Shown here: piece after piece, positions 10,009 through 62,183 of the stretch
Layout of the letters: each line of letters opens with the position of its first letter
Position numbering within the stretch: the stretch's first letter is position 1
NCBI RefSeq assembly: GCF_026151205.1
Contig: NC_087081.1
Span: 6,815,246-6,879,245 of the forward strand
Origin: Bolinopsis microptera
Taxonomy: Eukaryota; Ctenophora; Tentaculata; Lobata; Bolinopsidae
Reading direction: 5' to 3'
DNA: 64,000 nucleotides
Made by a program: the position numbers and the translations under genes
The notes under the pieces: model-generated
Databases searched by the model: none
The model's input: the letters and a program-made list of their open reading frames with translations, nothing else
Told to the model about the DNA's origin: nothing

Positions 10009-10801
10009 CTTGTTTAGGTGCTGCTTGTCTAGGAGGTGACGGTGTTTTTGCCATTTCTCGAGTCTCAACCAGAACCTTCCCTTTCTCAATTATAGGACTG
10101 AATTCCACTTTTGGACGAGATTTGGTTTTCTTTGACCACTTCAGACTGAACTCTAGTTTGTGTTTAGGTTTTGGTGGAGTTACTGACTGTTTGGTAGTTT
10201 GGATGACAACCTCAGGGCTCTCCAACAACATCACATCTGAGCCTGTGTAATTGTCGTCATAGTAACGAGAGCAGGAGTCCATGGTGAAGGTTGAGTTGGT
10301 GTATGTGGAGTTTGAATAAGTGGGGGATAAGCTGAAAATAGCGATTGAGAAGAGATTTTGAGTATTTGGGAAATGGAAGAAATTTTAAAAAACACGGTAA
10401 GTCGAGATACGCAGTAAACCGGGACAATACGGACAAACCTGTCAATGTCTAAGATATCTGGAGTTTCTGGCACTCCGACATTCTCAACTAGCTCCAACAG
10501 CGACACTGTCGAATAGTAAATAGTTACTGTAGTTACTAGTTACTATAGCGACACTGTCGAATCAAACAAGAATCAGTCTCGATGAGTCTTAAAATTAAAG
10601 CTTGAATCAGAATAATTGATCATGAGGGTGAACTATTTCTAAAATCCTAGATTCTAAGTACTAGTAGTTCTTATATTTGGAAGGAAGGATTTTCAAAATG
10701 ATGCTAATAGTGGTGGACGCTGCACCTGAAGAGTGACTAGGGAGGGCAATGTCGTAATCATCGGCCATGATCAGTTCCCCATCTTCACTGTTCACCTCGT
10801 G
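10009..10801 (-). CDS. unrecognised Ser/Pro/Lys-rich protein, three internal or 3' exons
   Basis: Exons 10726-10801, 10439-10505 and 10009-10331 join in matching phases (0/1, 1/2, 2/1). The first encodes HEVNSEDGELIMADDYDIAL and more. The second is acidic (SLLELVENVGVPETPDILD). The third is Ser/Thr/Tyr-rich, then basic (KHKLEFSLKWSKKTKSRPK), ending in TPSPPRQAAPKQ. It looks like a disordered cytoplasmic or nuclear protein, and I do not recognise the family. The final donor GTCGGA is weak. If unused, the frame runs on through the transposon's terminal repeat to a TAA at 9833, with an AATAAA on the minus strand near 9630, giving a transposon-derived C-terminus. Phase (1) does not fit the exon at 8755-8604, so this is treated as a separate gene. 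Upstream exons were not identified. The first exon's acceptor is triplicated (see 10773-11005). Confidence 0.6.
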
Positions 10802-11005
10802 CTGGCAAATCACAGGGAAAATTACAGGAAAAGATTTGAGATTAACTAGAACAATGCAATGAGTTCCCCATCTTCACTGTTCACCTCGTGCTGGCAAATC
10901 ACAGGTAAAATTACAGGAAAAGATTTGAGATTAAGTTCCCCATCTTCACTGTTCACCTCGTGCTGGCAAATCACAGGTAAAATTACAGGAAAAGATTTGA
11001 GATTA
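10773..11005 (-). repeat. triplicated 3' splice site plus exon start
   Basis: Three near-identical copies (starting at 10773, 10862 and 10934) of a unit of about 72-89 bp contain, on the minus strand, the intron end TGATTTGCCAG and the first 29 bases of the exon starting CACGAGGTGAAC. Only the copy nearest the exon body (acceptor at 10802) continues into the full exon. The other two acceptors (10891, 10963) lead into a partial exon and then the next intron copy. Extra inclusion would add 89 or 161 bases and shift the frame. Confidence 0.85.
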
Positions 11006-12465
11006 TGATTTGAGATTAACTAGAACAATGCAATGATAGATTGAAAGTTGGACTGAAAAGGGCTATAATTCACCTTATCCATACTCTAAGAACTTATCGA
11101 GCCAGTGGCACATCGGAAGAGAAAATATAGCGATCAAAGCTTTCAATTTCAACGTGTGAACAAACTGAAAACAATTGCGACAGTTCTAAGGAGGCACTGA
11201 ATTTCAACAATACATCACCAAACGCAATTTACTAAAAGTGTGAACTGATAATTTGAAATGCCACATTACGAGATCTCACTTTTATAGAGCTGAGAGCTTG
11301 TCAGCTCATCACGGAACTGCGTTACTTGGTTTCCATGGAAACTACAGCAGACATTGTAAAACTGTTTCCAGAATGATACACGTGAATATTGTAGTATTGT
11401 TTGTGTAAAGTTTGTATACTTCGTAGTGATATTTTGTTGTTTTAAGATGGCTTCATATCCTTTTATTCTCGTTACTAGTGTAACCCGTGCCTTCGGCCGG
11501 GACTTTACTGTCACAGTTGCCATGTAAAAGTATACAACCGCATTATATATTTGATATCACGCATAACGCTGTCTTATGAAAGTATGAAATCTCCCTACAG
11601 TTGAAACAAAGCGGCCGCAAGAGTGAGCTCTAAGCTTATAATAATTACGTGGGGCTAAACTAATTACGGTACATGTTATCCTCCTCGTTCTCTCTCCCAT
11701 CCATTTATGTCACATTTCTGGAACAAAATCATCAATTAAACCACTTACCACCGGCCGATTTAAAAAAAATTTGCGTATGGGCTTCATCAGAGTTTTGTCG
11801 GCACTATACCGAAAAAACCAGTCCCGTAACTATTACCGTTTTTTTTGTATAACCGTTCGGAAATTACACACAGACACACAGACACACAGACACACAGACA
11901 CACACACATTCTGGTGTTATTAAGTTGATTAAATTCTGCGGAAAGTTTTCTAGTTTTGTTTGTTTGTTTCGAGTTCTAGAACATTTGTTTATTTTGCGGT
12001 TAGTAAGATTGCAAAATTTCTCCTACATTTTGAGGTTTATTATTATAAAACTTTCGTTATAAGAAATATCCTAATTGTATCAACAGCCTTTTACGACGAT
12101 AGGTAGGAGGCAAGAAAAATCATGTATCAAATAAAATAAGATGAAATAAATAGATTTAAATAAAAACAAATTGGATCAGAATATCCAAAAACAAAAATGT
12201 AACAATCCCGTCCTTCAAAACTTGAATAATAATAAATAACCGTATAAATTAAAATAATACATACTATAAAGTCACCCATGGTATGCATAATGCAGTCACC
12301 AAGAAAGTCAGTCCATACTACCCAGTAGTAACACAATCACAATTACGGCCCCATCAAATAAAATTATCAAAATCTGTCTGATAATAATCACAAAATTCTT
12401 ACTGAATCCTAAAAAAGAAAAATGCTTTAAAAAGCAACCACTAAAACCATACCACTAACACAAAC
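11006..12465. other. non-coding stretch, including 3' flank of the secreted-protein gene
   Basis: No supported exon. An 85-codon minus-strand open frame (11266-11523) has no recognisable domain. At 11489-11506 lies an imperfect hairpin with a GAA triloop on the minus strand (CCCGGCCGAAGGCACGGG). A repeat at about 11717-11909 matches 16550-16718. A TTTATT at about 12031 gives an AATAAA on the minus strand, a possible polyadenylation signal for the gene at 12466-13550. Confidence 0.5.
11717..11909 (+). repeat. dispersed repeat ending in (ACAGACAC)n microsatellite, copy 1
   Basis: Shares the order ATCAATTAAACCACTTACC, ACCGGCCGATTT, TCAGAGTTTTGTCG, an ACTATACCG block, CGGAAATTAC and an ACAGACACAC tail with the copy at 16550-16718, in the same orientation. 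The microsatellite tail suggests a LINE or SINE 3' end, or a small element, inserted twice. No coding capacity is seen. Confidence 0.65.
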
Positions 12466-16173: not shown

Positions 16174-16241
16174 CTGGTAAAAATGGCGGCAGCTGATCTT
16201 GAACCGTGATATGGGAACAGCAGGAGGTTCTTGGATCTCAT
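16174..16241 (-). CDS. possible first coding exon of an unknown minus-strand gene
   Basis: On the minus strand an ATG at 16241 opens 22 codons (MRSKNLLLFPYHGSRSAAAI...) that end at a perfect donor, CCAG|GTAAGTGTT, in phase 2. There is no obvious signal peptide or motif, and the next exon was not found. It abuts the 47-bp minisatellite, and the plus strand here may belong to the large plus-strand gene. The strong donor is the main support. Confidence 0.25.
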
Positions 16242-16551
16242 GGGTCTACCCCTTCCAGAGGTCTCATTCAAGGTAAGGGGTTTAATATGGGTTTACCCCT
16301 TCCAGAGGTCTCATTCAAGGTAAGGGATTTAATATGGGTCTACCCCTTCCAGAGGTCTCATTCAAGGTAATGGGTTTAATATGGGTTTACCCCTTCCAGA
16401 GGTCTAATTCAAGGTAAGGGGTTTAATAAGGGTATACCCCTTCCAGAGGTCTCATTCAAGGTAAGGGGTTTAATAAGGGTTTACCCCTTCCAGAGGTCTC
16501 ATTCAAGGTAAGGGGTTTCAATAAGGGTTTACCCCTTCCAGAGGTCTCATA
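16240..16551 (+). repeat. 47-bp minisatellite carrying acceptor, microexon-like and donor motifs
   Basis: Nearly seven copies of a 47-bp unit (one with an extra base). Each full unit on the plus strand contains TTTACCCCTTCCAG (acceptor-like), then AGGTCTCATTCAAG (14 bases), then GTAAGG (donor-like), then an AT-rich TTTAATA spacer. Mutations between units mostly avoid these motifs. The array lies upstream of, and on the same strand as, the exon at 17085. Confidence 0.8.
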
Positions 16552-16718
16552 CAAAACCATCAATTAAACCACTTACCACCGGCCGATTTTTAACAACCTT
16601 AATTATTTGGCTTCGTCAGAGTTTTGTCGAAACTATACCGGAAGAACCTGTTTCATAACTCTTACTGTTTTCTTGATTAAACCGCTCGGAAATTACCCAC
16701 AGACAGACAGACACACGT
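16550..16718 (+). repeat. dispersed repeat with ACAGACAGACAC tail, copy 2
   Basis: Same block order and orientation as 11717-11909, ending in an ACAGACAGACAGACAC run. It starts exactly where the 47-bp minisatellite breaks off, so it probably inserted into the array or ended its growth. Confidence 0.65.
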
Positions 16719-17084: not shown

Positions 17085-19441
17085 GTCAAGTACCGCATCA
17101 GAAGTGTCGGAGTATTTCAGTGCAAACGACTGGACACCAGATCCTAACAGAAAGACTGTTTCTTGGGATGAAGTTAACTTTGAGAAGGTCAGAAATCTGC
17201 TTCTTTTGAAAAATTTTATTTCATATTCCTTACTTCATTTCAGCTTTCAAAATGAAAAATACTTGTTTGTTGTTTCGATAATATTTTGATAATTGAAAGA
17301 AGTTTCATCGAATACTTTACAGGTTAGAGTTTTTAATGGTTCAGGAGACCAAGTCAATCTTGTTAAAGTGGTTCCAAGTCCGCCACCTCGGTCCGTTAAG
17401 AAGGTGCCACCTCGCCCAAAACCTGAGCTCCAGAAACAGATCAGGTAGAAGTTCACAAAATAGTTTCTAAATCAGCCCTGTTGTGACCACAAAGACACCC
17501 AGTACTCTACTATCCTTATTTTACATTATCTTTGTGATATTTTAAGATACGGTCCGGTTCTCATTGTTGTTAAGATATTCTGACGAATTTTATTTTCAGA
17601 GGATTTACAAAATTACCCTTAAAGACAATTGAACGTAGAAAAAATTCGAAAAAGAAATGTCCACCAAATATTCGCAAAAAGCACACTCCAGAGAAATATT
17701 TTATCGACGAGATGAATCGTATTGATAAATTGGTAGAAAGGGAAGCTTACGGAGTGTCTAAATACAGGGTTATCCATCAAAAGACATCAAGGTTATCTCA
17801 TTTGTTTGGTTATCTGACAATTCCTTGTCTCCTGATTTATTTCTAATCACTGTTTAAACCAATAATTTCTCAAAAAGATTTGATTGCCAGCGCGCAACAG
17901 GGCATTCTTATTGCTATAAGTTAAAGATACTAAGATTATGAGCTGACTGTGATATTGTTCTATATTTCAGGTTTGATGTATCAAACTTACCATCTGAGAG
18001 TGAGATTAAGGGAGGAACACTAGATTTCAACCCAAAACTTGGGCCTCTGCTTTCAAAGTACGAGAATCTTAAAACAATTTCCCTTGAACTGCATGACCGG
18101 CACACACTGCAATGTGAGGGACTCCAGAGGACCAGTCCTGTCCAGGAGATAGCGGATGATATCTGCAAGGATTTACAGGATATGACATATGAAAATGAGA
18201 AGGTTGAAGCGAAGAGCAGTCCCCAGGAGGAGAACGATGTTGAAGTAAAGGTAAACACGGACAGTCCATATGAGGTTAAGGAAATATCGTTACAAGCTCT
18301 ACAAGAAGCCGGCATCAAGCTGATAAAAGTTGAGCCTGTGTACACCACAATCAGTGCTCTTCACCTAGGAGAACCCTCTCCGGAGACAACATACTCACCG
18401 GACACAACAGATTCTCTGGAGACAACAGATTCTCCGGATACAACATATTCTCCAGAGACAATAGACTCACTGGAGACAATAGATTCACCGTCAGATAGCG
18501 ATAGACCCTCAACTCCTACCACCACCCCACGTGTCACAGTCCCCATTGCCATGTCCTTTAATAGTGAGGACACTGATATGTTCGAAGGAAAGACAGTATC
18601 GTTCAGGGACACTACTGGTAAGGGCGAACTTCACTCAGTATTCTGCTATTCCGGGTCGGAGGAGTCCCTTGCTTTTGATGCTTCCACTGTTATAACGCTG
18701 CCGAGAGAAGTTGACGAGCTCTCTGATATTGAAATAGATTTACCTGACTCAGAGGTTAGGAATACTGGCTCAGAGAATATAAATCCTGTTTTGGTAATGA
18801 CTTCTGAAGATGTGATGCTGCAGCTGGAAAAGGATTTTGTGAACATTGGAGACACTATGGAGTTTCTATTAGACTCAGCTCCTAAATATAACGCTCTACC
18901 TAGAAGGATTCGTCAGGACTCTTTATCACAAACTAGAGAAGATATAGTATCACTTACTAGAACCTGTGAGATAACAGGTAGTGTCGAGATTCTTGGCAAT
19001 GTTTCAGAAGAAAAATCATCGGTTACAGCAGAAGATCTACTGGTTCAAGAGGAGAAATTAGGTGTTTTGAGTCATGAAATATCCGAGAAAAGATCGCCAG
19101 TAAATGTGTCGCCAGTCAAGGAATCTTCAGGTGAATCTTTGCTGGAATTTTCAGCTGCCGTAGATAGTGCTGCGATAAACTTTACAGAACTAGACTTACC
19201 CCTAATTGAAAAAGATACGTCAGAAAAAATATCCGATGCAATTGTAACCAAAGAAACTTGGCCGATCCATCCTGCTAGTGCAAATGTAAATCCTGCTGTT
19301 TCCAGAATAATTCACGATTCTTCTCATTCTGAATCTGATGGTTTTAACTTTGTGGAAGATAGTAGTCAACAAGATACTAAGTCAGAAATGGACGGTTTAG
19401 AAGAGGGGAAGGAAGATGGTCTATCAGAATCAGCAACTGAT
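17085..19441 (+). CDS. 5' exons of a large, acidic, disordered protein with SH3-type proline motifs
   Basis: Four exons join in phase: 17085-17187 (donor GTCAGA), 17323-17444 (acceptor TTTACAG, donor GTAGAA), 17600-17791 (acceptor TTTTCAG, donor GTTATC) and 17971-19441 (acceptor TATATTTCAG, donor GTAAGT). Exon 1 encodes EYFSANDWTPDPNRKTVSWD. Exon 2 is proline-rich (VVPSPPPRSVKKVPPRPKPE), with PxxP motifs that could bind SH3 domains. Exon 3 is strongly basic, then amphipathic. Exon 4 encodes 490 residues rich in Asp, Glu, Ser and Thr, mostly disordered, and includes a six-residue tandem repeat (see 18388-18492). I do not recognise the family; a cytoplasmic or cytoskeletal scaffold is the simplest guess. 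Earlier exons were not found: exon 1 starts in phase 2 and has a weak pyrimidine tract. Exon 4 ends in phase 0, as needed by the exon at 35905. Confidence 0.7.
18388..18492 (+). repeat. coding 18-bp repeat, six-residue Ser-Pro-Glu-Thr units
   Basis: Within the long exon about six tandem units follow the pattern [Y/D]-S-[P/L]-[D/E]-T-[T/I]. The first units read TTYSPDTTDSLETTDSPDTT. DNA units are near 18 bp and keep the frame, so growth or loss would change protein length without breaking it. Confidence 0.7.
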
Positions 19442-27763: not shown

Positions 27764-28033
27764 GGAATAGGTGGCCTAGTGGTTAGAGCATCCGCCTTCT
27801 GCGCAGAAGGTTCAGGGTTCGAATCCCAGTGTCACCTAGTCTAGGGAGTAGCTAAGGATCCATTGGATCTATGCGATCTCCTCGGTCGACTCAGCCGAAT
27901 GATAGGAAACTTAATTGAGGGTTAAATGAGGTGGGGTACCCGTGACCTGTTAAAAGTTCAAGAAACTTCCTAGGATACCCCTTCAGTGCATACTGTAAAC
28001 ATAGTGCTATTAACTATTAACTATTAACTATTG
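27764..28033 (+). mobile_element. tRNA-derived SINE, copy A
   Basis: The head (27769-27838) folds like a tRNA. It has 7-bp acceptor ends AGGTGGC / GTCACCT, an A box TGGCCTAGTGG and a perfect B box GGTTCGAATCC. The anticodon loop is too short for a working tRNA. The body shares a core with copy B: AGCTAAGGATC, TCTATGC, ACTCAGCCGAAT, GAGGGTTAAATGAGG. The 3' end is a short (ACTATTA)n-type run at about 28008-28032, as in SINEs without a poly(A) tail. Confidence 0.8.
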
Positions 28034-28589
28034 TTCAACGGGCGGGCCAGACCCTTTTATGACCAGACATAGCTTTATTTTATAGAGTGGAAATCCTTGG
28101 GTGGAGCTATCAAAGGATTCGCTCTGCGGGGCCCGGTCAGAAGTCCTTCAGCTCGGTTTAGAGTTTTAGGCCAGAGACCGGTGACTACATTAAAAGAAAA
28201 TAAGGAGAACTAGACAAATGTATCTTCTCTCCAGATTGGGATGTTTATTTTTTGACCCGGCTTGCTTTGAGCTAAGGTTTCTCGACTATAGTTTTATAGT
28301 TTAAAAAAGATAAAATTACAGAGAATCTCGTCAACTTTTCATTCTAAGTTTTAACAGAGTCCACAGATTCAATAGCAGTGGTCCTAAATTCTCACTGAGA
28401 GATGCACGTTCATTATTTTATGATTAGTGTATTGCAACTGTTGCTTGAACAGTGTTTACTTGCTTGATTACAGCCATTTTAATTTTTTGATAAATTGCTG
28501 CTGTTTAATTTATATGCTCTTTGTGTTAGGTCTGACAGCAAATAGCCCCGCTAGTGCCTCTTTTTGTGACTCAACTATAAGTTTTCTCA
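28034..28589. other. intron stretch before the minisatellite
   Basis: No gene or clear element is seen. The last bases lead into the oldest, most diverged units of the 31-bp array. Confidence 0.4.
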
Positions 28590-31500
28590 TCTTGATTAAA
28601 CTTATCCACCCTCCCGTGTAGCAAATTTAAACACAAGGATATAAGTTTCCTTACCTTTCTCAAACCAATGTACCCTCCCTGTTTAGCATGTTCAAACAAA
28701 TGGATAAATTTCCTTGATCAAACTAATCCACCCTCCCCGTCTAGCTGATCAAACTAATCCACCCTCCCTGTCTAGCTGATCAAACTAATCCACCCTCCCC
28801 GTCTAGCTGATCAAACTAATCCACCCTCCCCGTATAGCTGATCAAACTAATCCACCCTCCCCGTATAGCTGCTCAAACTAATCCACCCTTCCCGTCTAGC
28901 TGATCAAACTAATCCACCCTCCCCGTCTAGCTGATAAAACTAATCCACCCTCCCCGTGTAGCTGATCAAACTAATCCACCCTCCCCGTCTAGCTGATCAA
29001 ACTAATCCACCCTCCCCGTCTAGCTGATCAAACTAATCCACCCTCCCCGTATAGCTGATCAAACTAATCCACCCTCCCCGTCTAGCTGATCAAACTAATC
29101 CACCCTCCCCGTCTAGCTGATCAAACTAATCCACCCTCCCCGTCTAGCTGATCAAACTAATCCACCCTCCCCGTCTAGCTGATAAAACAAATCCACCCTC
29201 CCCGTGTAGCTGATCAAACTAATCCACCCTCCCCGTGTAGCTGATCAAACTAATCCACCCTCCCCGTCTAGCTGATCAAACTAATCCACCCTCCCCGTCT
29301 AGCTGATCAAACTAATCCACCCTCCCCGTCTAGCTGATAAAACTAATCCACCCTCCCCGTCTAGCTGATCAAACTAATCCACCCTCCCCGTGTAGCTGAT
29401 CAAACTAATCCACCCTCCCCGTGTAGCTGATCAAACTAATCCACCCTCCCCGTCTAGCTGATCAAACTAATCCACCCTCCCCGTCTAGCTGCTCAAACTA
29501 ATCCACCCTCCCCGTCTAGCTGATCAAACTAATCCACCCTCCCCGTATAGCTGATCAAACTAATCCACCCTCCCCGTCTAGCTGATCAAACTAATCCACC
29601 CTCCCCGTGTAGCTGATCAAACTAATCCACCCTCCCCGTCTAGCTGATCAAACTAATCCACCCTCCCCGTGTAGCTGATCAAACTAATCCACCCTCCCCG
29701 TGTAGCTGATAAAACTAATCCACCCTCCCCGTGTAGCTGATCAAACTAATCCACCCTCCCCGTCTAGCTGATCAAACTAATCCACCCTCCCCGTCTAGCT
29801 GATCAAACTAATCCACCCTCCCCGTGTAGCTGATCAAACTAATCCACCCTCCCCGTCTAGCTGATCAAACTAATCCACCCTCCCCGTCTAGCTGATCAAA
29901 CTAACCCACCCTCCCCGTCTAGCTGATCAAACTAATCCACCCTCCCCGTCTAGCTGATCAAACTAATCCACCCTCCCCGTCTAGCTGATCAAACTAATCC
30001 ACCCTCCCCGTCTAGCTGATCAAACTAATCCACCCTCCCCGTCTAGCTGATCAAACTAATCCACCCTCCCCGTGTAGCTGATCAAACTAATCCACCCTCC
30101 CCGTGTAGCTGATCAAACTAATCCACCCTCCCCGTCTAGCTGATCAAACTAATCCACCCTCCCCGTCTAGCTGATCAAACTAATCCACCCTCCCCGTCTA
30201 GCTGATCAAACTAATCCACCCTCCCCGTCTAGCTGATCAAACTAATCCACCCTCCCCGTCTAGCTGATCAAACTAATCCACCCTCCCCGTCTAGCTGATC
30301 AAACTAATCCACCCTCCCCGTCTAGCTGATCAAACTAATCCACCCTCCCCGTCTAGCTGATCAAACTAATCCACCCTCCCCGTCTAGCTGATCAAACTAA
30401 TCCACCCTCCCCGTCTAGCTGATCAAACTAATCCACCCTCCCCGTCTAGCTGATCAAACTAATCCACCCTCCCCGTCTAGCTGATCAAACTAATCCACCC
30501 TCCCCGTGTAGCTGATCAAACTAATCCACCCTCCCCGTCTAGCTGATCAAACTAATCCACCCTCCCCGTCTAGCTGATCAAACTAATCCACCCTCCCCGT
30601 GTAGCTGATCAAACTAATCCACCCTCCCCGTCTAGCTGATCAAACTAATCCACCCTCCCCGTCTAGCTGATCAAACTAATCCACCCTCCCCGTCTAGCTG
30701 ATCAAACTAATCCACCCTCCCCGTCTAGCTGATCAAACTAATCCACCCTCCCCGTCTAGCTGATCAAACTAATCCACCCTCCCCGTCTAGCTGATCAAAC
30801 TAATCCACCCTCCCCGTCTAGCTGATCAAACTAATCCACCCTCCCCGTCTAGCTGATCAAACTAATCCACCCTCCCCGTCTAGCTGATCAAACTAATCCA
30901 CCCTCCCCGTCTAGCTGATCAAACTAATCCACCCTCCCCGTCTAGCTGATCAAACTAATCCACCCTCCCCGTCTAGCTGATCAAACTAATCCACCCTCCC
31001 CGTCTAGCTGATCAAACTAATCCACCCTCCCCGTCTAGCTGATCAAACTAATCCACCCTCCCCGTCTAGCTGATCAAACTAATCCACCCTCCCCGTCTAG
31101 CTGATCAAACTAATCCACCCTCCCCGTCTAGCTGATCAAACTAATCCACCCTCCCCGTCTAGCTGATCAAACTAATCCACCCTCCCCGTCTAGCTGATCA
31201 AACTAATCCACCCTCCCCGTCTAGCTGATCAAACTAATCCACCCTCCCCGTCTAGCTGATCAAACTAATCCACCCTCCCCGTCTAGCTGATCAAACTAAT
31301 CCACCCTCCCCGTCTAGCTGATCAAACTAATCCACCCTCCCCGTCTAGCTGATCAAACTAATCCACCCTCCCCGTCTAGCTGATCAAACTAATCCACCCT
31401 CCCCGTCTAGCTGATCAAACTAATCCACCCTCCCCGTCTAGCTGATCAAACTAATCCACCCTCCCCGTCTAGCTGATCAAACTAATCCACCCTCCCCGTC

Positions 31501-34500
31501 TAGCTGATCAAACTAATCCACCCTCCCCGTATAGCTGATCAAACTAATCCACCCTCCCCGTCTAGCTGATCAAACTAATCCACCCTCCCCGTCTAGCTGA
31601 TCAAACTAATCCACCCTCCCCGTCTAGCTGATCAAACTAATCCACCCTCCCCGTCTAGCTGATCAAACTAATCCACCCTCCCCGTCTAGCTGATCAAACT
31701 AATCCACCCTCCCCGTCTAGCTGATCAAACTAATCCACCCTCCCCGTCTAGCTGATCAAACTAATCCACCCTCCCCGTCTAGCTGATCAAACTAATCCAC
31801 CCTCCCCGTCTAGCTGATCAAACTAATCCACCCTCCCCGTCTAGCTGATCAAACTAATCCACCCTCCCCGTCTAGCTGATCAAACTAATCCACCCTCCCC
31901 GTCTAGCTGATCAAACTAATCCACCCTCCCCGTCTAGCTGATCAAACTAATCCACCCTCCCCGTCTAGCTGATCAAACTAATCCACCCTCCCCGTCTAGC
32001 TGATCAAACTAATCCACCCTCCCCGTCTAGCTGATCAAACTAATCCACCCTCCCCGTCTAGCTGATCAAACTAATCCACCCTCCCCGTCTAGCTGATCAA
32101 ACTAATCCACCCTCCCCGTCTAGCTGATCAAACTAATCCACCCTCCCCGTCTAGCTGATCAAACTAATCCACCCTCCCCGTCTAGCTGATCAAACTAATC
32201 CACCCTCCCCGTCTAGCTGATCAAACTAATCCACCCTCCCCGTCTAGCTGATCAAACTAATCCACCCTCCCCGTCTAGCTGATCAAACTAATCCACCCTC
32301 CCCGTCTAGCTGATCAAACTAATCCACCCTCCCCGTCTAGCTGATCAAACTAATCCACCCTCCCCGTCTAGCTGATCAAACTAATCCACCCTCCCCGTCT
32401 AGCTGATCAAACTAATCCACCCTCCCCGTCTAGCTGATCAAACTAATCCACCCTCCCCGTCTAGCTGATCAAACTAATCCACCCTCCCCGTCTAGCTGAT
32501 CAAACTAATCCACCCTCCCCGTCTAGCTGATCAAACTAATCCACCCTCCCCGTCTAGCTGATCAAACTAATCCACCCTCCCCGTGTAGCTGATCAAACTA
32601 ATCCACCCTCCCCGTCTAGCTGATCAAACTAATCCACCCTCCCCGTCTAGCTGATCAAACTAATCCACCCTCCCCGTCTAGCTGATCAAACTAATCCACC
32701 CTCCCCGTCTAGCTGATCAAACTAATCCACCCTCCCCGTCTAGCTGATCAAACTAATCCACCCTCCCCGTCTAGCTGATCAAACTAATCCACCCTCCCCG
32801 TGTAGCTGATCAAACTAATCCACCCTCCCCGTCTAGCTGATCAAACTAATCCACCCTCCCCGTCTAGCTGATCAAACTAATCCACCCTCCCCGTGCTAGC
32901 TGATCAAACTAATCCACCCTCCCCGTCTAGCTGATCAAACTAATCCACCCTCCCCGTGTAGCTGATCAAACTAATCCACCCTCCCCGTCTAGCTGATCAA
33001 ACTAATCCACCCTCCCCGTCTAGCTGATCAAACTAATCCACCCTCCCCGTCTAGCTGATCAAACTAATCCACCCTCCCCGTCTAGCTGATCAAACTAATC
33101 CACCCTCCCCGTCTAGCTGATCAAACTAATCCACCCTCCCCGTCTAGCTGATCAAACTAATCCACCCTCCCCGTGTAGCTGATCAAACTAATCCACCCTC
33201 CCCGTCTAGCTGATCAAACTAATCCACCCTCCCCGTGTAGCTGATCAAACTAATCCACCCTCCCCGTGTAGCTGATCAAACTAATCCACCCTCCCCGTTA
33301 GCTGATCAAACTAATCCACCCTCCCCGTGTAGCTGATCAAACTAATCCACCCTCCCCGTCTAGCTGATCAAACTAATCCACCCTCCCCGTCTAGCTGATC
33401 AAACTAATCCACCCTCCCCGTTAGCTGATCAAACTAATCCACCCTCCCCGTGTAGCTGATCAAACTAATCCACCCTCCCCGTCTAGCTGATCAAACTAAT
33501 CCACCCTCCCCGTCTAGCTGATCAAACTAATCCACCCTCCCCGTCTAGCTGATCAAACTAATCCACCCTCCCCGTCTAGCTGATCAAACTAATCCACCCT
33601 CCCCGTGTAGCTGATCAAACTAATCCACCCTCCCCGTGTAGCTGATCAAACTAATCCACCCTCCCCGTTAGCTGATCAAACTAATCCACCCTCCCCGTCT
33701 AGCTGATCAAACTAATCCACCCTCCCCGTCTAGCTGATCAAACTAATCCACCCTCCCCGTCTAGCTGATCAAACTAATCCACCCTCCCCGTCTAGCTGAT
33801 CAAACTAATCCACCCTCCCCGTCTAGCTGATCAAACTAATCCACCCTCCCCGTCTAGCTGATCAAACTAATCCACCCTCCCCGTCTAGCTGATCAAACTA
33901 ATCCACCCTCCCCGTCTAGCTGATCAAACTAATCCACCCTCCCCGTCTAGCTGATCAAACTAATCCACCCTCCCCGTGTAGCTGATCAAACTAATCCACC
34001 CTCCCCGTCTAGCTGATCAAACTAATCCACCCTCCCCGTCTAGCTGATCAAACTAATCCACCCTCCCCGTCTAGCTGATCAAACTAATCCACCCTCCCCG
34101 TCTAGCTGATCAAACTAATCCACCCTCCCCGTGTAGCTGATCAAACTAATCCACCCTCCCCGTATAGCTGCTCAAACTAATCCACCCTCCCCGTCTAGCT
34201 GATCAAACTAACCCACCCTCCCCGTCTAGCTGATCAAACTAATCCACCCTCCCCGTATAGCTGATTAAACTAATCCACCCTCCCCGTGTAGCTGATCAAA
34301 CTAATCCACCCTCCCCGTGTAGCTGATCAAACTAATCCACCCTCCCCGTCTAGCTGATCAAACTAATCCACCCTCCCCGTCTAGCTGATCAAACTAATCC
34401 ACCCTCCCCGTCTAGCTGATCAAACTAATCCACCCTCCCCGTGTAGCTGATCAAACTAATCCACCCTCCCCGTGTAGCTGATCAAACTAATCCACCCTCC

Positions 34501-35904
34501 CCGTCTAGCTGATCAAACTAATCCACCCTCCCCGTCTAGCTGATCAAACTAATCCACCCTCCCCGTCTAGCTGATCAAACTAATCCACCCTCCCCGTCTA
34601 GCTGATCAAACTAATCCACCCTCCCCGTCTAGCTGATCAAACTAATCCACCCTCCCCGTCTAGCTGCTCAAACTAATCCACCCTCCCCGTCTAACTGATC
34701 AAACTAATCCACCCTCCCCGTCTAGCTGATCAAACTAATCCACCCTCCCCGTGTAGCTGATCAAACTAATCCCACCCTCCCCGTATAGCTGCTCAAACTA
34801 ATCCACCCTCCCCGTCTAGCTGATCAAACTAACCCACCCTCCCCGTCTAGCTGATCAAACTAATCCACCCTCCCCGTCTAACTGATTAAACTAATCCACC
34901 CTCCCCGTGTAGCTGATCAAACTAATCCACCCTCCCCGTCTAGCTGATCAAACTAATCCACCCTCCCCGTCTAGCTGATCAAACTAATCCACCCTCCCCG
35001 TGTAGCTGATCAAACTAATCCACCCTCCCCGTCTAGCTGATCAAACTAATCCACCCTCCCCGTCTAGCTGATCAAACTAATCCACCCTCCCCGTCTAGCT
35101 GATCAAACTAATCCACCCTCCCCGTCTAGCTGATCAAACTAATCCACCCTCCCCGTGTAGCTGATCAAACTAATCCACCCTCCCCGTCTAGCTGATCAAA
35201 CTAATCCACCCTCCCCGTCTAGCTGCTCAAACTAATCCACCCTCCCCGTGTAGCTGATCAAACTAATCCACCCTCCCCGTGTAGCTGATCAAACTAATCC
35301 ACCCTCCCCGTCTAGCTGATCAAACTAATCCACCCTCCCCGTCTAGCTGATCAAACTAATCCACCCTCCCCGTGTAGCTGATCAAACTAATCCACCCTCC
35401 CCGTCTAGCTGATCAAACTAATCCACCCTCCCCGTGTAGCTGATCAAACTAATCCACCCTCCCCGTCTAGCTGATCAAACTAATCCACCCTCCCCGTCTA
35501 GCTGATCAAACTAATCCACCCTCCCCGTGTAGCTGATCAAACTAATCCACCCTCCCCGTCTAGCTGATAAAACTAATCCACCCTCCCCGTCTAGCTGATA
35601 AAACTAATCCACCCTCCCCGTGTAGCTGATCAAACTAATCCACCCTCCCCGTCTAGCTGATCAAACTAATCCACCCTCCCCGTCTAGCTGATCAAACTAA
35701 TCCACCCTCCCCGTCTAGCTGATCAAACTAATCCACCCTCCCCGTCTAGCTGATCAAACTAATCCACCCTCCCCGTCTAGCTGATAAAACTAATCCACCC
35801 TCCCCGTATAGCTGATCAAACTAATCCACCCTCCCCGTCTAGCTGATCAAACTAATCCACCCTCCCCGTCTAGCTGATCAAACTAATCCACCCTCCCCGT
35901 CTAG
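28590..35904 (+). repeat. 31-bp minisatellite, about 230 copies, each built like a 3' splice site
   Basis: The unit is 31 bp: CTGATCAAACTAAT followed by CCACCCTCCCCGTCTAG. On the plus strand, the transcribed strand of the surrounding gene, it reads as CTAAT (fits the branch-point pattern yUnAy), a 15-base run almost all pyrimidine, and AG about 18 bases after the branch A. Variants are mostly GTGTAG, GTATAG, GTTAG (30 bp) and GATAAA. The middle (about 30640-32590) is nearly uniform and the edges are more varied. The left edge (28590-28725) keeps two old, widely spaced units (TTGATTAAACTTATCCACC, TCAAACCAATGTACCCTCCC). The last unit ends exactly at the exon at 35905. All three frames through the units hit stops. 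Confidence 0.95.
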
Positions 35905-36020
35905 CTGGCAGGAGATGAGAAAGGGAAACTGCTAGTTATCCTCCTGGGGCAGCGACTAGATACAGTCAGTAAGGAGGAGGCAGGGGAGGCCGGGGACTCC
36001 TTCGCCACTGCTGACAACCG
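35905..36020 (+). CDS. internal exon of the large plus-strand gene, spliced from the satellite edge
   Basis: An open stretch of 38 codons plus two bases encodes LAGDEKGKLLVILLGQRLDT, then an Ala/Glu/Gly-rich tail ending ATADNR. It stands out from the surroundings by its GC content and clear codon use. The acceptor is either the AG of the last satellite unit (GTCTAG|CTGGCAGG, phase 0, matching the phase-0 end of the exon at 19441) or the GGCAG seven bases on (phase 1). The donor is GTCAGT (phase 2), or less likely GTACTC four bases later (phase 0, which would fit the exon at 46188). No family is recognised. Confidence 0.6.
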
Positions 36021-39000
36021 GTCAGTACTCTTACTTTATTGACACAAGTTTTGTTTCATTAAAAACAATTTTTGTTCAAACACAGGGAAGAGTTATAAAC
36101 GAAAAATACTTCTTAGTCTGCTCCAAACAGTTTGGCGCAAATGTAGACGGGTGAATATAGATCTCGATAGGATCTATCACGTGGTCTCTCACAAATTTAG
36201 AAGCAGCTCAAGAAGTGACGACTTTTCTCCCGTGCATCGGGTATACTCTCAAACAAAACTGCCACGCAATAATGCGTGACGGAACAACGCATCTGCTTGT
36301 CCCACGTGACTAGCAGTCTCGCCAAATGAACACTCCGCTAGTCAGTCACCCTGCAGTCGCAAGAATCAACCACAGGCCACTCGGCCAGTTAAGTGCAAAC
36401 ATGAGCGGACAGCTCTTATCTGATAATAGATAAGCTCGCTTAAACCGATATTTACAACAAACGCGTGTAAATAGAGATAAGCTAAATCAAACTTTACCCG
36501 CGGAAATCCTTATCATTAAATTTAACTAGCCTAATTCCAAATACTAATAATAATTTCTAGATTAAATGAAATAAGAAAACGTACCTGACTAATACAAGAT
36601 GCGCTGAATAACAAATTTAAACTTGGAGAAATCTGCTGATTCTCCCTGTCAACACAATCAGAGTCATACCAAGGCGGCTGAAACTCACAAAATAAAATTA
36701 AAGCAATTATTAAGTTATTGTTCACACAATTAGTCAATTGTTCTAGCTCCATTGTCAATTCATACGTGAAGTATATACTGAAGTAGTGAGGCGCTTTAAA
36801 AGCGCCGCTTTTTATTATTCGATGAGATACGCTGAACTGTTGCCACGGTGTCATGTCTGAAAAATTGTAAAGGTCTTGCACTTGTCAGAGTTTATATTCT
36901 TGTAATCTTGTCACTCCACAACTATGCGGACTTTTTTAATATTTGGTTTGATCATTATGATGTCAAACAGTTAAATTTATTCGGATTTTGGATTTCCTAC
37001 TTTATAGGTTTTTTGAATTATTTTATTACCATCCAAATGAATTAAAACTAAAGTTTACCATGCCATTCAAAATCTAACTTTTCTTCAACTATAATACATT
37101 CATTATTTTTGGTTCCCAATGAAAATTTTGGATTTATAGATTCTATCGCGATCCCTCTCATAATAATGAAAAATACTAATATCTCTGACTTTCAAGATAA
37201 TCCTTGAAACAGTCAAAAACGGCACTCTACCACCACAAATTTAATGTAAGATTATAATGTATGATTATAATGTATATAATGTATGATAATATAGTGAATA
37301 GTAATAAGTAAGTAAGTGATATAGTTGATGTTAACCGGACCTAAGCTATCCCTTGTCTCATGTGTCACAAGGCTGCTGGTAGCTGTATCATGAACATATT
37401 GTATGACTATGATAATAAAATATTTATGACTATGATAATTCAATAATAAAGACTAATCACTCATAGTGATGATATGTTTATTTCTTAAGTAATTTCACCA
37501 AAGTTACAAAAGCGTTAAGCGCTAGACCGTAATCTATTGTTTCAATCGTATTTTATATATCGACTGTAATTGATAATTTGTTAGAGTCGACAAATTCCTT
37601 AAAAGCTTAATGAACTCACAATTGCGATAATTTATATAATCATCCGCGTGCATAAATTACATAATTAACATCCGTTATACCATAGTACCGGAGACATAGT
37701 CAGAACCAACCGACGATTTGTCTGCCCCTAATAATTCTGATCATTGTTTCATAATTTATAATAATTATAATAATCAGCACTACGGACCTGCTGCTGATTC
37801 TTTTTCTTTTATATATAAGAGAAAAAAATCAGCAGCAGGTTATATATAGCTCCAATTGATCGTATATTACAGACGAGTGAAGATGTTAACGTTTTTGTTT
37901 GCCAATATATTGGCAAACTGCGTACATGTGTTAACTTTTGTTTCTTCATTACAGTTCATTTGTATCTATGTTAGTAGTTAGACACATCCAATATTAGTAT
38001 TATTTGTAATGTTGACGTGCAATAGGTACTGCTATATTCTATACTATACTTTTTGGTATTTGTGCTACATTATGTTTCCTCTAATTCTATTTTAGATATT
38101 TTTAATGTGTGGTAAAAACGGAGGTGTTAAGGTGCTCACCTTGACTAATTGTTACTTAATTTCTGTTAAATTCCTGTTTAAGTTCATGTTATTCGCAATA
38201 CTACATATTTTTTCCATCCGCCATTTTTGTGAAGCAAAAAAAGTAAAGGATCGGATGGTTACAAATGGTAAAATTGTGAAAAAAGAGGAATTTTCAAGAT
38301 CAGGGTAGGTGGGTTTAAATATGTCTTCATTCCTTCCTTCCATCCGTCAAAATTCGTCGTAGCAATGTCTAAACTTTACAAAATTACAAATTTTCGGTAA
38401 CTAAGCAGTCATCAACGACTAAAAATGTTAGTATATTTTGGCTTTAGTATTACAATATATAACACTATCATAGTTGAATCGATTATTTTGATTAAATGAC
38501 ATGGAACATAAAAAACTAGTCCCAGTCTAGTGTGGTTGTATTAAAATGGATCACGTCATGATTTCATGAATTAGTGACAATTAATCTCATTAGAAGCAAG
38601 GTGGCGTTTACAGGTAGCATATTCGCGAGGTGTTTCAAAATCCGGTTCATGAATTATGACAGTCGTTTATCTTATATATTATATATTATCTTATTTGTTA
38701 TATCAACACGTTTATACCGACATATGAGAACAATCACAGTAAAATTAGCAGTAGCAATATACGGGGTTTCAAACACATTTAAACTATAAACAGTACAGTG
38801 TTCATTCGTGTTGCAACATTTTATAATTCAATTCAATTCAATAAACTGTAAGCGCACGAAACGGTACACACCAAAACGAAACGAAAACATTGTTGATTGT
38901 TTATGAACGTTCTTGGTTTTATGGCGCGCGTTTGAACACGCAATTAAAATTAAATGCCTTTGATCCTTATATGCACGTACGATACATTCTACATGTCATT

Positions 39001-42402: not shown

Positions 42403-43893
42403 TTACTGGGCCTCGCTCAGCCTGTCATTCCGCCGAATCTCTATGTTAATGAACATGATAGCCTGAGGTCCCCAGGTAAAATAAACAATGCCACTAATCT
42501 AAGTTCAGTCCAAATGCTCGTTACCTGGTTACCTGGTTACCTGGTTACCTGGTTACCTGGTTACCTGGTTACCTGGTTACCTGGTTACCTGGTTACCTGG
42601 TTACCTTATCTCTATGTTAATGAACATGATAGCCTGAGGTCCCCAGGTAAAATAAACAATGCCACTAATCTAAGTTCAGTCCAAATGCTGGTTACCTGGT
42701 TACCTGGTTACCTGGTTACCTGGTTACCTGGTTACCTGGTTACCTGGTTACCTGGTTACCTGGTTACCTGGTTACCTGGTTACCTGGTTACCTGGTTACC
42801 TGGTTACCTGGTTACCTGGTTACCTGGTTACCTGGTTACCTGGTTACCTGGTTACCTGGTTACCTGGTTACCTGGTTACCTGGTTACCTTATCTCTATGT
42901 TAATGAACATGATAGCCTGAGGTCCCCAGGTAAAATAAACAATGCCACTAATCTAAGTTCAGTCCAAATGCTGGTTACCTGGTTACCTGGTTACCTGGTT
43001 ACCTGGTTACCTGGTTACCTGGTTACCTGGTTACCTGGTTACCTGGTTACCTGGTTACCTGGTTACCTGGTTACCTTATCTCTATGTTAATGAACATGAT
43101 AGCCTGAGGTCCCCAGGTAAAATAAACAATGCCACTAATCTAAGTTCAGTCCAAATGCTGGTTACCTGGTTACCTGGTTACCTGGTTACCTGGTTACCTG
43201 GTTACCTGGCTACCTGGTTACCTGGTTACCTGGTTACCTGGTTACCTGGTTACCTTATCTCTATGTCAATGAACATGATAGCCTGAGGTCCCCAGGTAAA
43301 ATAAACAATGCCACTAATCTAAGTTCAGTCCAAATGCTGGTTACCTGGTTACCTGGTTACCTGGTTACCTGGTTACCTGGTTACCTGGTTACCTGGTTAC
43401 CTGGTTACCTGGTTACCTTATCTCTATGTTAATGAACATGATAGCCTGAGGTCCCCAGGTAAAATAAACAATGCCACTAATATAAGTTCAGTCCAAATGC
43501 TGGTTACCTGGTTACCTGGTTACCTGGTTACCTGGTTACCTGGTTACCTGGTTACCTGGTTACCTGGTTACCTGGTTACCTGGTTACCTGGTTACCTGGT
43601 TACCTTATCTCTATGTTAATGAACATGATAGCCTGAGGTCCCCAGGTAAAATAAACAATGCCACTAATATAAGTTCAGTCCAAATGCTGGTTACCTGGTT
43701 ACCTGGTTACCTGGTTACCTGGTTACCTGGTTACCTGGTTACCTGGTTACCTGGTTACCTGGTTACCTGGTTACCTGGTTACCTGGTTACCTGGTTACCT
43801 GGTTACCTGGTTACCTTATCTCTATGTTAATGAACATGATAGCCTGAGGTCCCCAGGTAAAATAAACAATGCCACTAATCTAAGTTCAGTCCG
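42403..43893 (+). repeat. higher-order array: eight copies of a module of about 85 bp joined by (TTACCTGG)n
   Basis: A full copy of the short TTACTGGG element opens the array at 42403. Its 3' part and flank (TCTCTATGTTAATGAACATG, ATAGCCTGAGGTCCCCAGG, TAAAATAAACAATGCC, ACTAATCTAAGTTCAGTCC, AAATGCTGG) then recur eight times in all. They are separated by seven blocks of the octamer TTACCTGG, with about 9-25 copies each. Modules are nearly identical, while octamer number varies. Long open frames of Leu-Pro-Gly-Tyr-Leu-Val-Thr-Trp type are artefacts of the octamer. Confidence 0.9.
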
Positions 43894-46187: not shown

Positions 46188-46794
46188 ATGACCGAACATT
46201 CTCCACATGTTCTCGGGACAACAAGAACAGCCATTTCCTTAGCCACCTTCAATGTGTCGAAACCAGACAATCTATTCCGTCAGAAAAGCGAACCATTACC
46301 TGCACTACCAGGGAGCCGGGATTATGATAATTTCAGTAGAGCTGATTCAGAAATTACCCGTCCACCACGGCAGCGGAGTCGAACCTCAAACTCAGAATCA
46401 GACCCCAGAAAGAAAGCTAGTTTGGGTTGGAGTTCCTTTGTTCTGGATAAGCTCATGACAGCTGGCGAATATTTGTCAGATACTGGGAGACAGGATCAGA
46501 ATATCTTCAGTCAGGGTAGGAACTTTATACTGAGCTGGAGGAACAGAAGTGATAGACGGAGGACAAGGTATTCTTATTTCCACTACTTTCACGTAGGTTT
46601 GATCATTGCTTCAAACTGTGCACATGCAGCAGCAATTCTATTTTATCTTTTGATACAAGTAGCAACTCAAGTATTTCCTCAAACAGTAGTGGAATCTCAG
46701 ATAAACCAGAACGGGAGAGACGAGGGAGTCTCTGTCCCGTTTTCAACGACCCAAGGGCCATGGAAATGGTGGCTAAAGCTGCACTAGCGAAAAA
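46188..46794 (+). CDS. two exons of the large plus-strand gene (or the first exons of a separate gene)
   Basis: Exon 46188-46567 begins with ATG right after the acceptor TTTCTCATCAG and encodes MTEHSPHVLGTTRTAISLAT, a DNLFRQKSEPLPALPGSRDY region, a basic RPPRQRSRTSNSESDPRKK stretch, and ASLGWSSFVLDKLMTAGEYL. It ends AG|GTATTC in phase 2. Exon 46660-46794 (acceptor GATACAAG, donor GTGAGT) adds a Ser/Asn-rich run, then RAMEMVAKAALAK. It ends in phase 2, which fits the exon at 57175. The protein is basic and Ser-rich with one possible helical segment, and no family is recognised. The initial ATG fits either a phase-0 internal exon or a true start, so a second gene beginning here is possible. A longer read-through past 46567 (199 codons) looks less coding-like. 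Confidence 0.6.
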
Positions 46795-50664: not shown

Positions 50665-52716
50665 TTCTTCTCCTCCCTCTTCTTCTCCCTCTTCTCCCTC
50701 TTCTCCTCCCTCTTCTCCTCCCTCTTCTCCTCCCTCTTCTCCTCCCTCTTCACCTTCCTCTTCACCTTCCTCTTCTTCTCCCTCTTCTCCTCCCTCTTCT
50801 CCTCCCTCTTCTCCTCCCTCTTCTCCTCCCTCTTCTCCTCCCTCTTCTCCTCCCTCTTCTCCTCCCTCTTCTCCTCCCTCTTCTCCTCCCTCTTCTCCTC
50901 CCTCTTCTCCTCCCTCTTCTCCTCCCTCTTCTCCTCCCTCTTCTCCTCCCTCTTCTCCTCCCTCTTCTCCTCCCTCTTCTCCTCCCTCTTCTCCTCCCTC
51001 TTCTCCTCCCTCTTCTCCTCCCTCTTCTTCTCCCTCTTCTTCTCCCTCTTCTCCTCCCTCTTCTTCTCCCTCTTCTCCTCCCTCTTCTCCTCCCTCTTCT
51101 CCTCCCTCTTCTCCTCCCTCTTCTCCTCCCTCTTCTTCTCCCTCTTCTCCTCCCTCTTCTCCTCCCTCTTCTTCTCCCTCTTCTCCTCCCTCTTCTCCTC
51201 CCTCTTCTCCTCCCTCTTCTCCTCCCTCTTCTTCTCCCTCTTCTCCACCCTCTTCTCCTCCCTCTTCTCCTCCCCCTTCTCCTCCCCCTTCTCCTCCCTC
51301 TTCTCCTCCCTTCTCCTCCCTCTTCTCCTCCCTCTTCTCCTCCCTCTTCTCCTCCCTCTTCTTCTCCCTCTTCTCCTCCTTCTTCTTCTCCTCACTCTTC
51401 TTCTCCCTCTTCTCCTCCCTCTTCTCCTCCCTCTTCTCCTCCCTCTTCTCCTCCCTCTTCTCCTCCCTCTTCTCCTCCCTCTTCTCCTCCCTCTTCTCCT
51501 CCCTCTTCTCCTCCCTCTTCTCCTCCCTCTTCTCCTCCCTCTTCTCCTCCCTCTTCTCCTCCCTCTTCTCCTCCCTCTTCTCCTCCCTCTTCTCCTCCCT
51601 CTTCTTCTCCCTCTTCTTCTCCCTCTTCTTCTCCCTCTTCTCCTCCCTCTTCTCCTCCCTCTTCTTCTCCCTCTTCTCCTCCCTCTTCACCTTCCTCTTC
51701 ACCTTCCTCTTCTTCTCCCTCTTCTCCTCCCTCTTCTCCTCCCTCTTCTCCTCCCTCTTCTCCTCCCTCTTCTCCTCCCTCTTCTCCTCCCTCTTCTCCT
51801 CCCTCTTCTCCTCCCTCTTCTCCTCCCTCTTCTCCTCCCTCTTCTCCTCCCTCTTCTCCTCCCTCTTCTCCTCCCTCTTCACCTCCCTCTTCTCCTCCCT
51901 CTTCACCTTCCTCTTCTTCTCCCTCTTCTCCTCCCTCTTCTCTTCCCTCTTCTCCTCCCTCTTCTCCTCCCCCTTCTCCTCTTCCTTCTCCTCCCTCTTC
52001 TCCTCCCTTCTCCTCCCTCTTCTCCTCCCTCTTCTCCTCCCTCTTCTCCTCCCTCTTCTCCTCCCTCTTCTTCTCCCTCTTCTCCTCCATCTTCTCCTCC
52101 CTCTTCTCCTCACTCTTCTTCTCCCTCTTCTCCTCCCTCTTCTCCTCCCTCTTCTCCTCCCTCTTCTCCTCCCTCTTCTCCTCCTTCTTCTCCTCCCTCT
52201 TCTCCTCCCTCTTCTTCTCCCTCTTCTTCTCCCTCTTCTCCTCCCTCTTCTCCTCCCTCTTCTTCTCCCTATTCTCCTCCCTCTTCTCCTCCCTCTTCTT
52301 CTCCTTCTTCTCCTCCCTCTTCTCCTCCCTCTTCTTCTCCCTCTTCTCCTCCCTCTTCTCCTCCCTCTTCTTCTCCTTCTTCTCCTCCCTCTTCTCCTCC
52401 CTCTTCTCCTCCCTCTTCTCCTCCCTCTTCTCCTCCCTCTTCTTCTCCCTCTTCTCCTCCCTCTTCTTCTCCCTCTTCTCCTCCCTCTTCTCCCCCCTCT
52501 TCTTCTCCCTCTTCTCCTCCCTCTTCTCCTCCCTCTTCTTCTCCCTCTTCTCCTCCCTCTTCTCCTCCCTCTTCTCCTCCCTCTTCTTCTCCCTCTTCTC
52601 CTCCTTCTTCGCCTCCATCTTCTCCTCCCTCTTCTTCTCCCTCTTCTCCCTCTTCTCCTCCTCCATCTTCTCCTCCTTCTTCTCCTCCCTTCTTCTCCCT
52701 CTTCTCCTCCCTCTTC
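50665..52716 (+). repeat. 2-kb polypyrimidine tract, 12-bp units CTTCTCCTCCCT
   Basis: About 2050 bases are C and T except for roughly a dozen A and one G. Variants CTTCTTCTCCCT and CTTCACCTTCCT are interspersed. The tract lies in the intron between 46794 and 57175, so the transcript would carry 2 kb of almost pure pyrimidine. All long open frames across it (Leu-Pro, Ser-Pro, Glu-Lys-Arg or Glu-Gly repeats) follow from the unit and are not genes. Confidence 0.95.
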
Positions 52717-61313: not shown

Positions 61314-62183
61314 CTCTCCTGGGATCCCCTTTAGTCAGTAAGTAAGATCGCAAAATATGAGTATCATTTCAAACAATTTGAGCTTTATGTAGTGGTATAA
61401 AATGCGTTGCGGTAGCATTTAACCCCTTTGTTCTTTGCAGATCAAAAGCTTTACGTCAAATCTGTTAACTCCATTCGAAACTTGCATAAAGGTATTATTG
61501 AATGAACCGAGCGTACTATAAATCACTCTATGCAAGTATGCATATGGAACCTTGAAATTTTTCTAAAAGTGCCCCCGATAGTTTTTGAACGCTTATCTGC
61601 TTATGCAGCAAAACCCCTGTTATGTATTTTACACAATTTCGACGAAAAAATATGGGATGGTCAATCCAACAACAAGTTCGTAAAAATATTTCAGTTTTTG
61701 AGCCACTTCCAAATATGAAAAAAAATGCGGGGAAGGAAATCATTTCTTGGAATTGCATGTCGGCAGTACCTTCAATAGGCAAGGCCAAGATTGTTTCGCA
61801 ACGTTAAGAATAAGTGAAAATATAGGTTTGAGGAACGTCGCGAAGTCGCGACTTTGACCTGTAAAACCAATTAACGCTGCAGGCTTTATCATTCTGGATA
61901 CATTTGCAAAACCTGCCCATTTTAGCAATGGTTAGGGTTTGCAGTTTAGATAGCCATGTGGCACGCTGCAAATAAATTATTCGAGAAATTCTTCTCGAAT
62001 AATTTTCAAGACTTGATGTCATCAATTTATTATCGGAGAAAAAAAGATTTAAATGGCTTTGCTCCAAATCGATTATTTGAAACTCTTACCAACCATCAAA
62101 TTTTGAAAGAGAGAACAAAGCTTTCGAGCGTGCTAAATCACTCTACGGTCGATCTTCGAGATTGTTCTAAAAGGGCCCCCGAC
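61314..62183. other. repeat-derived stretch upstream of the receptor gene
   Basis: No gene. Two diverged copies of one sequence, in the same order, lie around 61500-61595 and 62115-62183 + 62341-62360: CGAGCGT.CTA...AAATCACTCTA, then TTCTAAAAG.GCCCCCGA.AGTT. A hairpin TTATTCGAGAA / TTCTCGAATAA lies at about 61977-62003. Confidence 0.5.

Follow-up and report, generated by a model that had tools for sequence, protein, structure and literature searches.

We analysed a stretch of 64,000 nucleotides from the ctenophore Bolinopsis microptera (the window, C10:6815246-6879245, on contig NC_087081.1) within a genome of 264.65 Mb in 232 contigs. Positions below are those of the window unless a contig is named. 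On its plus strand, the window contains a 31-bp minisatellite of 7.2 kb, made up of about 230 near-identical repeats, that stops where a predicted coding exon begins. Sequence and computation give the array, its restriction to this locus, the fit of its units to a model of 3' splice sites (acceptors), a coding-like exon directly behind it, and stop codons after use of any upstream unit. The features at the locus are as follows; a slash marks a splice boundary.

28592 to 28714, plus strand: diverged left edge of the array, two degenerate units with AGs ending at 28621 and 28686, with spacers; successive AGs are 65 and 58 bp apart
28715 to 35907, plus strand: 31-bp minisatellite, delimited by Tandem Repeats Finder (TRF) and by unit decomposition, private to the locus
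35875 to 35905, plus strand: terminal unit, proposed working 3' splice site, with CTAAT at 35883-35887 (branch-type A at 35886), C-rich tract at 35888-35901 and AG at 35903-35904; acceptor model 5.3 bits
35905 to 36020, plus strand: predicted internal coding exon of 116 nt, entered in phase 0 with 2 nt over at the end, reading LAGDEKGKLLVILLGQRLDTVSKEEAGEAGDSFATADN
35910 to 35911, plus strand: competing downstream AG (CAG/GAG), -1.48 bits; the exon would begin at 35912
36021 to 36026, plus strand: predicted donor CCG/GTCAGT, 5.8 bits, 95th percentile of the window GTs outside two arrays

Anatomy of the array

TRF reports 232.1 copies of the unit with 98% matches, in agreement with the roughly 230 copies counted in the preliminary description of this locus. 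That description placed the array at 28590-35910. The regular array accounts for 28715-35907 of this, and 28592-28714 proved to lie outside it. When the region is split at TAGC, 231 stretches result, 222 of which are exactly 31 bp long, and 165 of the 231 are identical letter for letter to the consensus, TGATCAAACTAATCCACCCTCCCCGTCTAGC, which, in this one assembly, is compatible with recent turnover. The main variable site among the 222 stretches is position 27 (C in 175, G in 39 and A in 8). The right edge is sharp, the final three units being exactly the consensus, whereas the left edge is diverged: as acceptors, its two degenerate units score 1.25 and -1.48 bits, compared with 5.3 bits for the first consensus unit.

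Each unit had been described as CTAAT, a 15-base pyrimidine run and AG. The CTAAT is present, and so is the AG, except in two units in which TAAC replaces TAGC and the AG is lost; the run is not, since the longest one per unit is CCCTCCCC (8 nt). Between CTAAT and TAG, 12 of the 14 bases are pyrimidines, mostly C, so the tract is C-rich and not U-rich.

For the genomic distribution of the unit, its 23-base core was searched with up to 3 mismatches in the whole genome and in both orientations. This search gave 227 forward matches and no reverse match, and the plus strand of the window alone also gives 227; the satellite is therefore private to this locus. Its presence in many unrelated places, which the preliminary description had named as evidence against a splice-site origin, is accordingly not seen. 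An origin as a dispersed satellite or transposon was rejected on the same grounds, since the unit is found at no second genomic place. In a search with 28300-28760, the left flank (28300-28658) matches only itself, the remaining matches being array units, and the sole match of the peptide of the 35905 exon is itself (E <= 10).

Acceptor model

The acceptor model is based on introns of the same genome. Myosin introns were collected from paired adjacent Pfam matches, and hit pairs without a clear best GT-AG pair were left out. In total 27 myosin introns were kept, 26 of them with distinct acceptors, and the addition of four window introns placed by eye gave 30 sites; three of the by-eye exons in 17085-19441 (listed below) contributed to the model. 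Two of the 26 myosin introns have one donor in common, and 2 of the 32 listed donors were malformed and were excluded from the donor set.

Under leave-one-out scoring, the 30 training acceptors range from -1.4 to 14.0 bits. The terminal TAG/CTG of the array scores 5.3 bits, with 9 of the 30 training sites lower and 21 higher, and stands at the 95th percentile of the 3,036 AGs in the window when two arrays are left out. An exon start at 35912 was rejected because the AG before it, the next one downstream, scores below all 30 training acceptors; apart from the terminal TAG, no AG in 35880-36020 exceeds 0 bits. The branch-type A of CTAAT lies at -19 from the exon start, and YTRAY with its A at -14 to -21, a range picked after viewing the list, occurs in 13 of the 30 training introns. 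Branch motif, tract and AG are arranged in order at the usual distance.

The claim that the units in general qualify as acceptors is borne out by this genome-derived model: 223 of the 229 internal units reach at least 4.5 bits. The reverse complement of the unit scores -3.9, and among 10 other repeat units of the window, taken on both strands, none attains the score of the unit (best, 3.8 bits).

Predicted exon behind the array

The array end determined by TRF (35907) lies no more than 3 nt from position 35905, where the exon is predicted to begin, so that the repeat abuts a predicted boundary. The terminal unit itself ends at 35905, as previously described, and the frame from there is open up to the donor after 36020; phase 0, also proposed earlier, follows from the sequence if the terminal TAG is used.

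Coding potential was calculated with a frame-specific model built from 27.6 kb of kinase and myosin sequence (52 segments). The 35905 frame scores +10.3 bits and the other two frames -33.5 and -33.2 (scored to 36017). Of 890 stop-free 111-nt background segments, which overlap one another and come from regions also used for the background model, 2 score as high as the 35905 frame. Coding, acceptor (5.3) and donor (5.8) scores sum to 21.4 bits. Candidate exons were then ranked with the exclusion of those overlapping recognised genes on either strand, those in masked arrays and anything shorter than 60 nt; under these rules 35905-36020 is the top plus-strand candidate. These scores are support, not proof. 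An unconstrained exon chain was not used as a gene model; its path included many pieces of 27 nt from the array and from other repeats.

Use of any internal acceptor would be disruptive. Whichever of the three phases is taken, all 229 of them run into a stop codon within 93 nt downstream, ahead of the donor. In this sense the earlier statement that upstream 31-base steps all contain stops is correct; the stops are not, however, a property of every step, since one unit alone is open in phase 0, and the stop there arises from the frameshift.

Comparison with known boundary repeats

The following comparisons draw on parts of the papers cited. The preliminary description knew of no case on this scale, but two known systems precede it, the amphioxus "mirages" (PMC3087553) and a variable number tandem repeat (VNTR) in human ABCA7 (PMC5954066).

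Mirages are length-unstable tandem repeats of intron-exon boundaries, many of whose units have splice signals; they include repeats on the 3' side, and cases are known in Adh3 and in the globins BflGb6 and BflGb9 (PMC3087553). By reverse transcription PCR they apparently have no effect on regular splicing (PMC3087553). The present array is the same in being a tandem repeat at an exon boundary with splice signals in many units, here the AGs of the 223 internal units noted above. A further likeness is that the BflGb6 mirage repeats the 3' end of an intron together with the start of the exon (PMC3087553). The dimensions differ. In BflGb6 the unit is 150-160 bp, present 6 times in one haplotype and 3 times in another, the BflGb9 unit is 157 bp (PMC3087553), and Adh3 units are reported to be 10-72 bp (original Adh3 work as cited in PMC3087553), whereas in our array the unit is 31 bp, the copies number about 230 and no more than 3 nucleotides are exonic. 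A 72-bp repeat at 10773-11005 of the window, described below, is nearer to the BflGb6 form than is the 31-bp array (PMC3087553).

The VNTR in ABCA7 intron 18 has a 25-bp unit in about 12 to 427 copies, the first two bases of which are the exon 18 donor; one isoform retains a single unit, at a level unchanged by VNTR length, and skipping of exon 19 rises with that length (PMC5954066). It resembles the present array in being C-rich, in that it opens with the splice signal belonging to the adjoining exon and in that use of a neighbouring unit shifts the frame, and differs in repeating a 5' donor rather than a 3' acceptor and in that its effects on splicing have been measured (PMC5954066), whereas our array is known from sequence. 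Since the array lies upstream of the predicted exon and carries an acceptor, it is not a donor VNTR of the ABCA7 type; it would work like a mirage, as a putative acceptor-side counterpart of ABCA7 at similar scale.

Genes in human segmental duplications also contain internal tandem repeats at exon-intron boundaries (PMC2812944). These are likewise minisatellites with units of about 30 bp, some of them at boundaries and altering splicing, but they have a mean of 4 copies and 160 bp and are linked with new introns (PMC2812944). A Caenorhabditis elegans minisatellite is tied to multiple splicing decisions, and the part of that paper used here does not mention splice sites within the units (PMC4039745). 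Among the listed titles and abstracts of open-licence PubMed Central papers, none deals with a 3' splice-site array as large as this one. With boundary repeats known in lancelets and humans, the array belongs to a known kind, of which it is an extreme example, and is not a new system.

Interpretation and alternatives

We consider it probable that the array is an exon-boundary minisatellite that arose by amplification of an intron 3' splice site, and that its terminal copy is still the working site. Besides the features of the array and exon given above, the diverged left and sharp right edge, a smaller boundary repeat elsewhere in the window (described below) and the amphioxus precedent speak for this. 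Amplification of a real 3' splice site, as the preliminary description had proposed, is in our view the best reading of the locus; from it we infer splicing of the exon, use of the terminal TAG, origin of the array from that very site and a near-neutral effect. In such a process, a 31-bp intron end holding a sequence like a branch point, followed by a short C-rich tract and AG, would have been duplicated in tandem many times, by slippage or unequal exchange, and the copy adjoining the exon would have kept its role. Selection on the coding exon would keep the array from growing into it and thereby fix the right edge. The internal units would be potential acceptors that are probably rarely used, since only the terminal unit has an exon and a donor behind it (exon definition). 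Occasional upstream use would yield premature-stop transcripts, to be removed by nonsense-mediated decay, and the rest of the array would probably be near neutral. Near-neutrality and the removal of rare misuse by decay lean on what is generally known about exon definition and nonsense-mediated decay, together with the amphioxus precedent, rather than on data of this locus.

If the terminal unit works, a single intron presents the spliceosome with about 230 near-identical acceptors in a row. The locus would then be a natural test of AG choice, in which exon definition could be set against distance or scanning for the first AG. Exon-boundary minisatellites, known from lancelet and human, would also gain a ctenophore case, one whose acceptor side is amplified on a scale like that of the ABCA7 donor. 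Should the spliceosome instead pass over the array, it is an ordinary, though extreme, minisatellite.

Several points weigh against the amplification of a working site. The C-rich tract is broken by non-pyrimidines; TAG occurs in 2 of the 30 training sites, as does C at +1; and the acceptor model is skewed to CAG because the picking of sites partly used a score that favours CAG. The observed score of the unit is reached by 10% of 20,000 random permutations of it. Exon scores as high as that of 35905-36020 are found elsewhere too: three unannotated candidate exons on the minus strand score 33.2, 23.0 and 21.7 bits, two plus-strand candidates antisense to a receptor gene score 24.8 and 21.8, and one 27-nt candidate scores 21.7. 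Pfam gives no match for the 35905 exon or for the neighbouring plus-strand exons, and a search of PDB gave only chance-level matches (E 0.28 and 0.29). No convincing exon was found to bridge 36020, where 2 nt are left over, to the phase-0 exon starting at 46188 (see below), the sole in-phase candidate scoring 8.7 bits.

The permutation result suits an ordinary intronic minisatellite that resembles a splice site mainly through its composition and whose growth is blocked by the exon; splicing at its terminal TAG, or at some other AG, would then be incidental. Because one permuted unit in ten scores as well, the sequence of the unit is weak evidence when taken by itself: the array is more than chance, but its unit looks like a splice site only modestly more than chance would give. 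TRF finds further minisatellites in the window, and in 3 of the 26 myosin introns an array reaches to within 25 nt of the acceptor, with no excess seen (no formal test was made; TRF coverage was 3-20% across the four stretches compared alongside). The stronger argument lies in the order of the parts of the unit and in its position at the exon. Against an ordinary minisatellite, branch motif, tract and AG fall in order at a usual distance, and an end within 3 nt of a predicted exon is, by judgement rather than computation, seldom to be expected of a random place in an intron of more than 7 kb. We regard this explanation as unlikely.

A second alternative keeps the whole anatomy and adds a function, namely competition of the internal acceptors with the terminal one, or a delay in its use, by which the length of the array would set the share of premature-stop, exon-skipped or intron-retained transcripts. 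That 223 of the 229 internal units score as acceptors and that all 229 lead to a stop fits this idea, as does the growth of exon 19 skipping with VNTR length in ABCA7 (PMC5954066). One-unit retention in the same gene stays constant with length, however (PMC5954066), and the amphioxus mirages reportedly leave regular splicing undisturbed (PMC3087553), which weakens both regulation and the sink for splicing factors raised in the preliminary description. Regulation by the array is possible but unsupported, and we hold it to be improbable, although our confidence in it overlaps with that in an amplified splice site because the two have the same anatomy.

It is similarly doubtful that the 35905 frame is not an exon at all, the array being intergenic or in an unrelated intron. 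The frame has no protein match in Pfam or PDB and no established link to the neighbouring exons, and comparable scores are also obtained by candidates in places that have no recognised gene. Against this, one frame stands at +10.3 bits while the other two are at about -33, its acceptor and donor are coherent, and exon-like sequence lies on both sides on the same strand. A length-dependent splicing rheostat, in which copy number varying between individuals or cells would tune productive mRNA through competition with the terminal acceptor, premature stops and decay, with 3' splice-site arrays recurring across the genes of this animal, seems very improbable.

Neighbouring plus-strand exons

Two groups of exons were placed by eye on the same strand as the array.

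17085-17187, 17323-17444, 17600-17791 and 17971-19441, plus strand: exons whose phases are compatible; the final one ends in phase 0
46188-46567 and 46630-46794, plus strand: exons with compatible phases; site scores 3.0, 5.2, 8.1 and 7.3 bits

The former may be an upstream part, and the latter possibly a downstream part, of the same gene as the predicted 35905 exon. The coding score is negative for 17600-17791, 46188-46567 and 46630-46793; the coding model thus misses some real-looking exons.

Other repeats and features

The window contains a second candidate boundary repeat, on the minus strand.

10773 to 11005, minus strand: three copies of a 72-bp unit in which the end of an intron is followed by the initial 29 nt of an exon, CACGAGGTGAACAGTGAAGATGGGGAACT

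TRF reports two perfect copies, and the third lies farther along. Their exon-like starts are at 10962, 10890 and 10801, with acceptor scores of 2.94, 2.94 and 4.07 bits, respectively. With phase 0 tried, only the last copy (start 10801) is open to the donor, and it runs into a predicted exon at 10726-10801 (minus strand; exon score 18.8 bits). The region has one match in the genome. A genome-wide habit of repeats at acceptors was rejected on the myosin introns counted above. In one myosin gene, a 19-bp repeat of 2.3 copies (L075:1450-1493) extends into the acceptor, its CTAAT included.

At 16240-16554 there is a 47-bp array of 6.7 copies, whose unit contains CCCCTTCCAG/AGGTCTCATTCAAG/GTAAGG and carries CCAG. 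It was rejected as a boundary repeat, its best acceptor scoring -0.2 bits and no abutting exon being seen. The sequence that follows it resembles by eye the surroundings of 11645-11920, so it may sit in a dispersed element. A 12-bp TCTTCTCCTCCC array of 171 copies at 50666-52716 makes a plus-strand stretch of about 2 kb that is nearly all pyrimidine; nothing exon-like was seen at its right end. An 8-bp GTTACCTG array at 42520-43816 lies inside a larger 187-bp repeat and has long stretches open in frame.

On the minus strand, 58023-61334 is an open frame of 1104 amino acids with matches to low-density lipoprotein (LDL)-receptor class A and to the rhodopsin-type seven-transmembrane (7TM) family. 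A weak Rfam tRNA match at 27770-27837 (32.1 bits, cut-off 29), which ARAGORN does not call, is perhaps a tRNA-derived repeat or a pseudogene. Among the myosin genes used for the acceptor model, two adjacent exons at C3:9153650-9154485 cover profile positions 105-167 and 102-167 and look like mutually exclusive alternatives.

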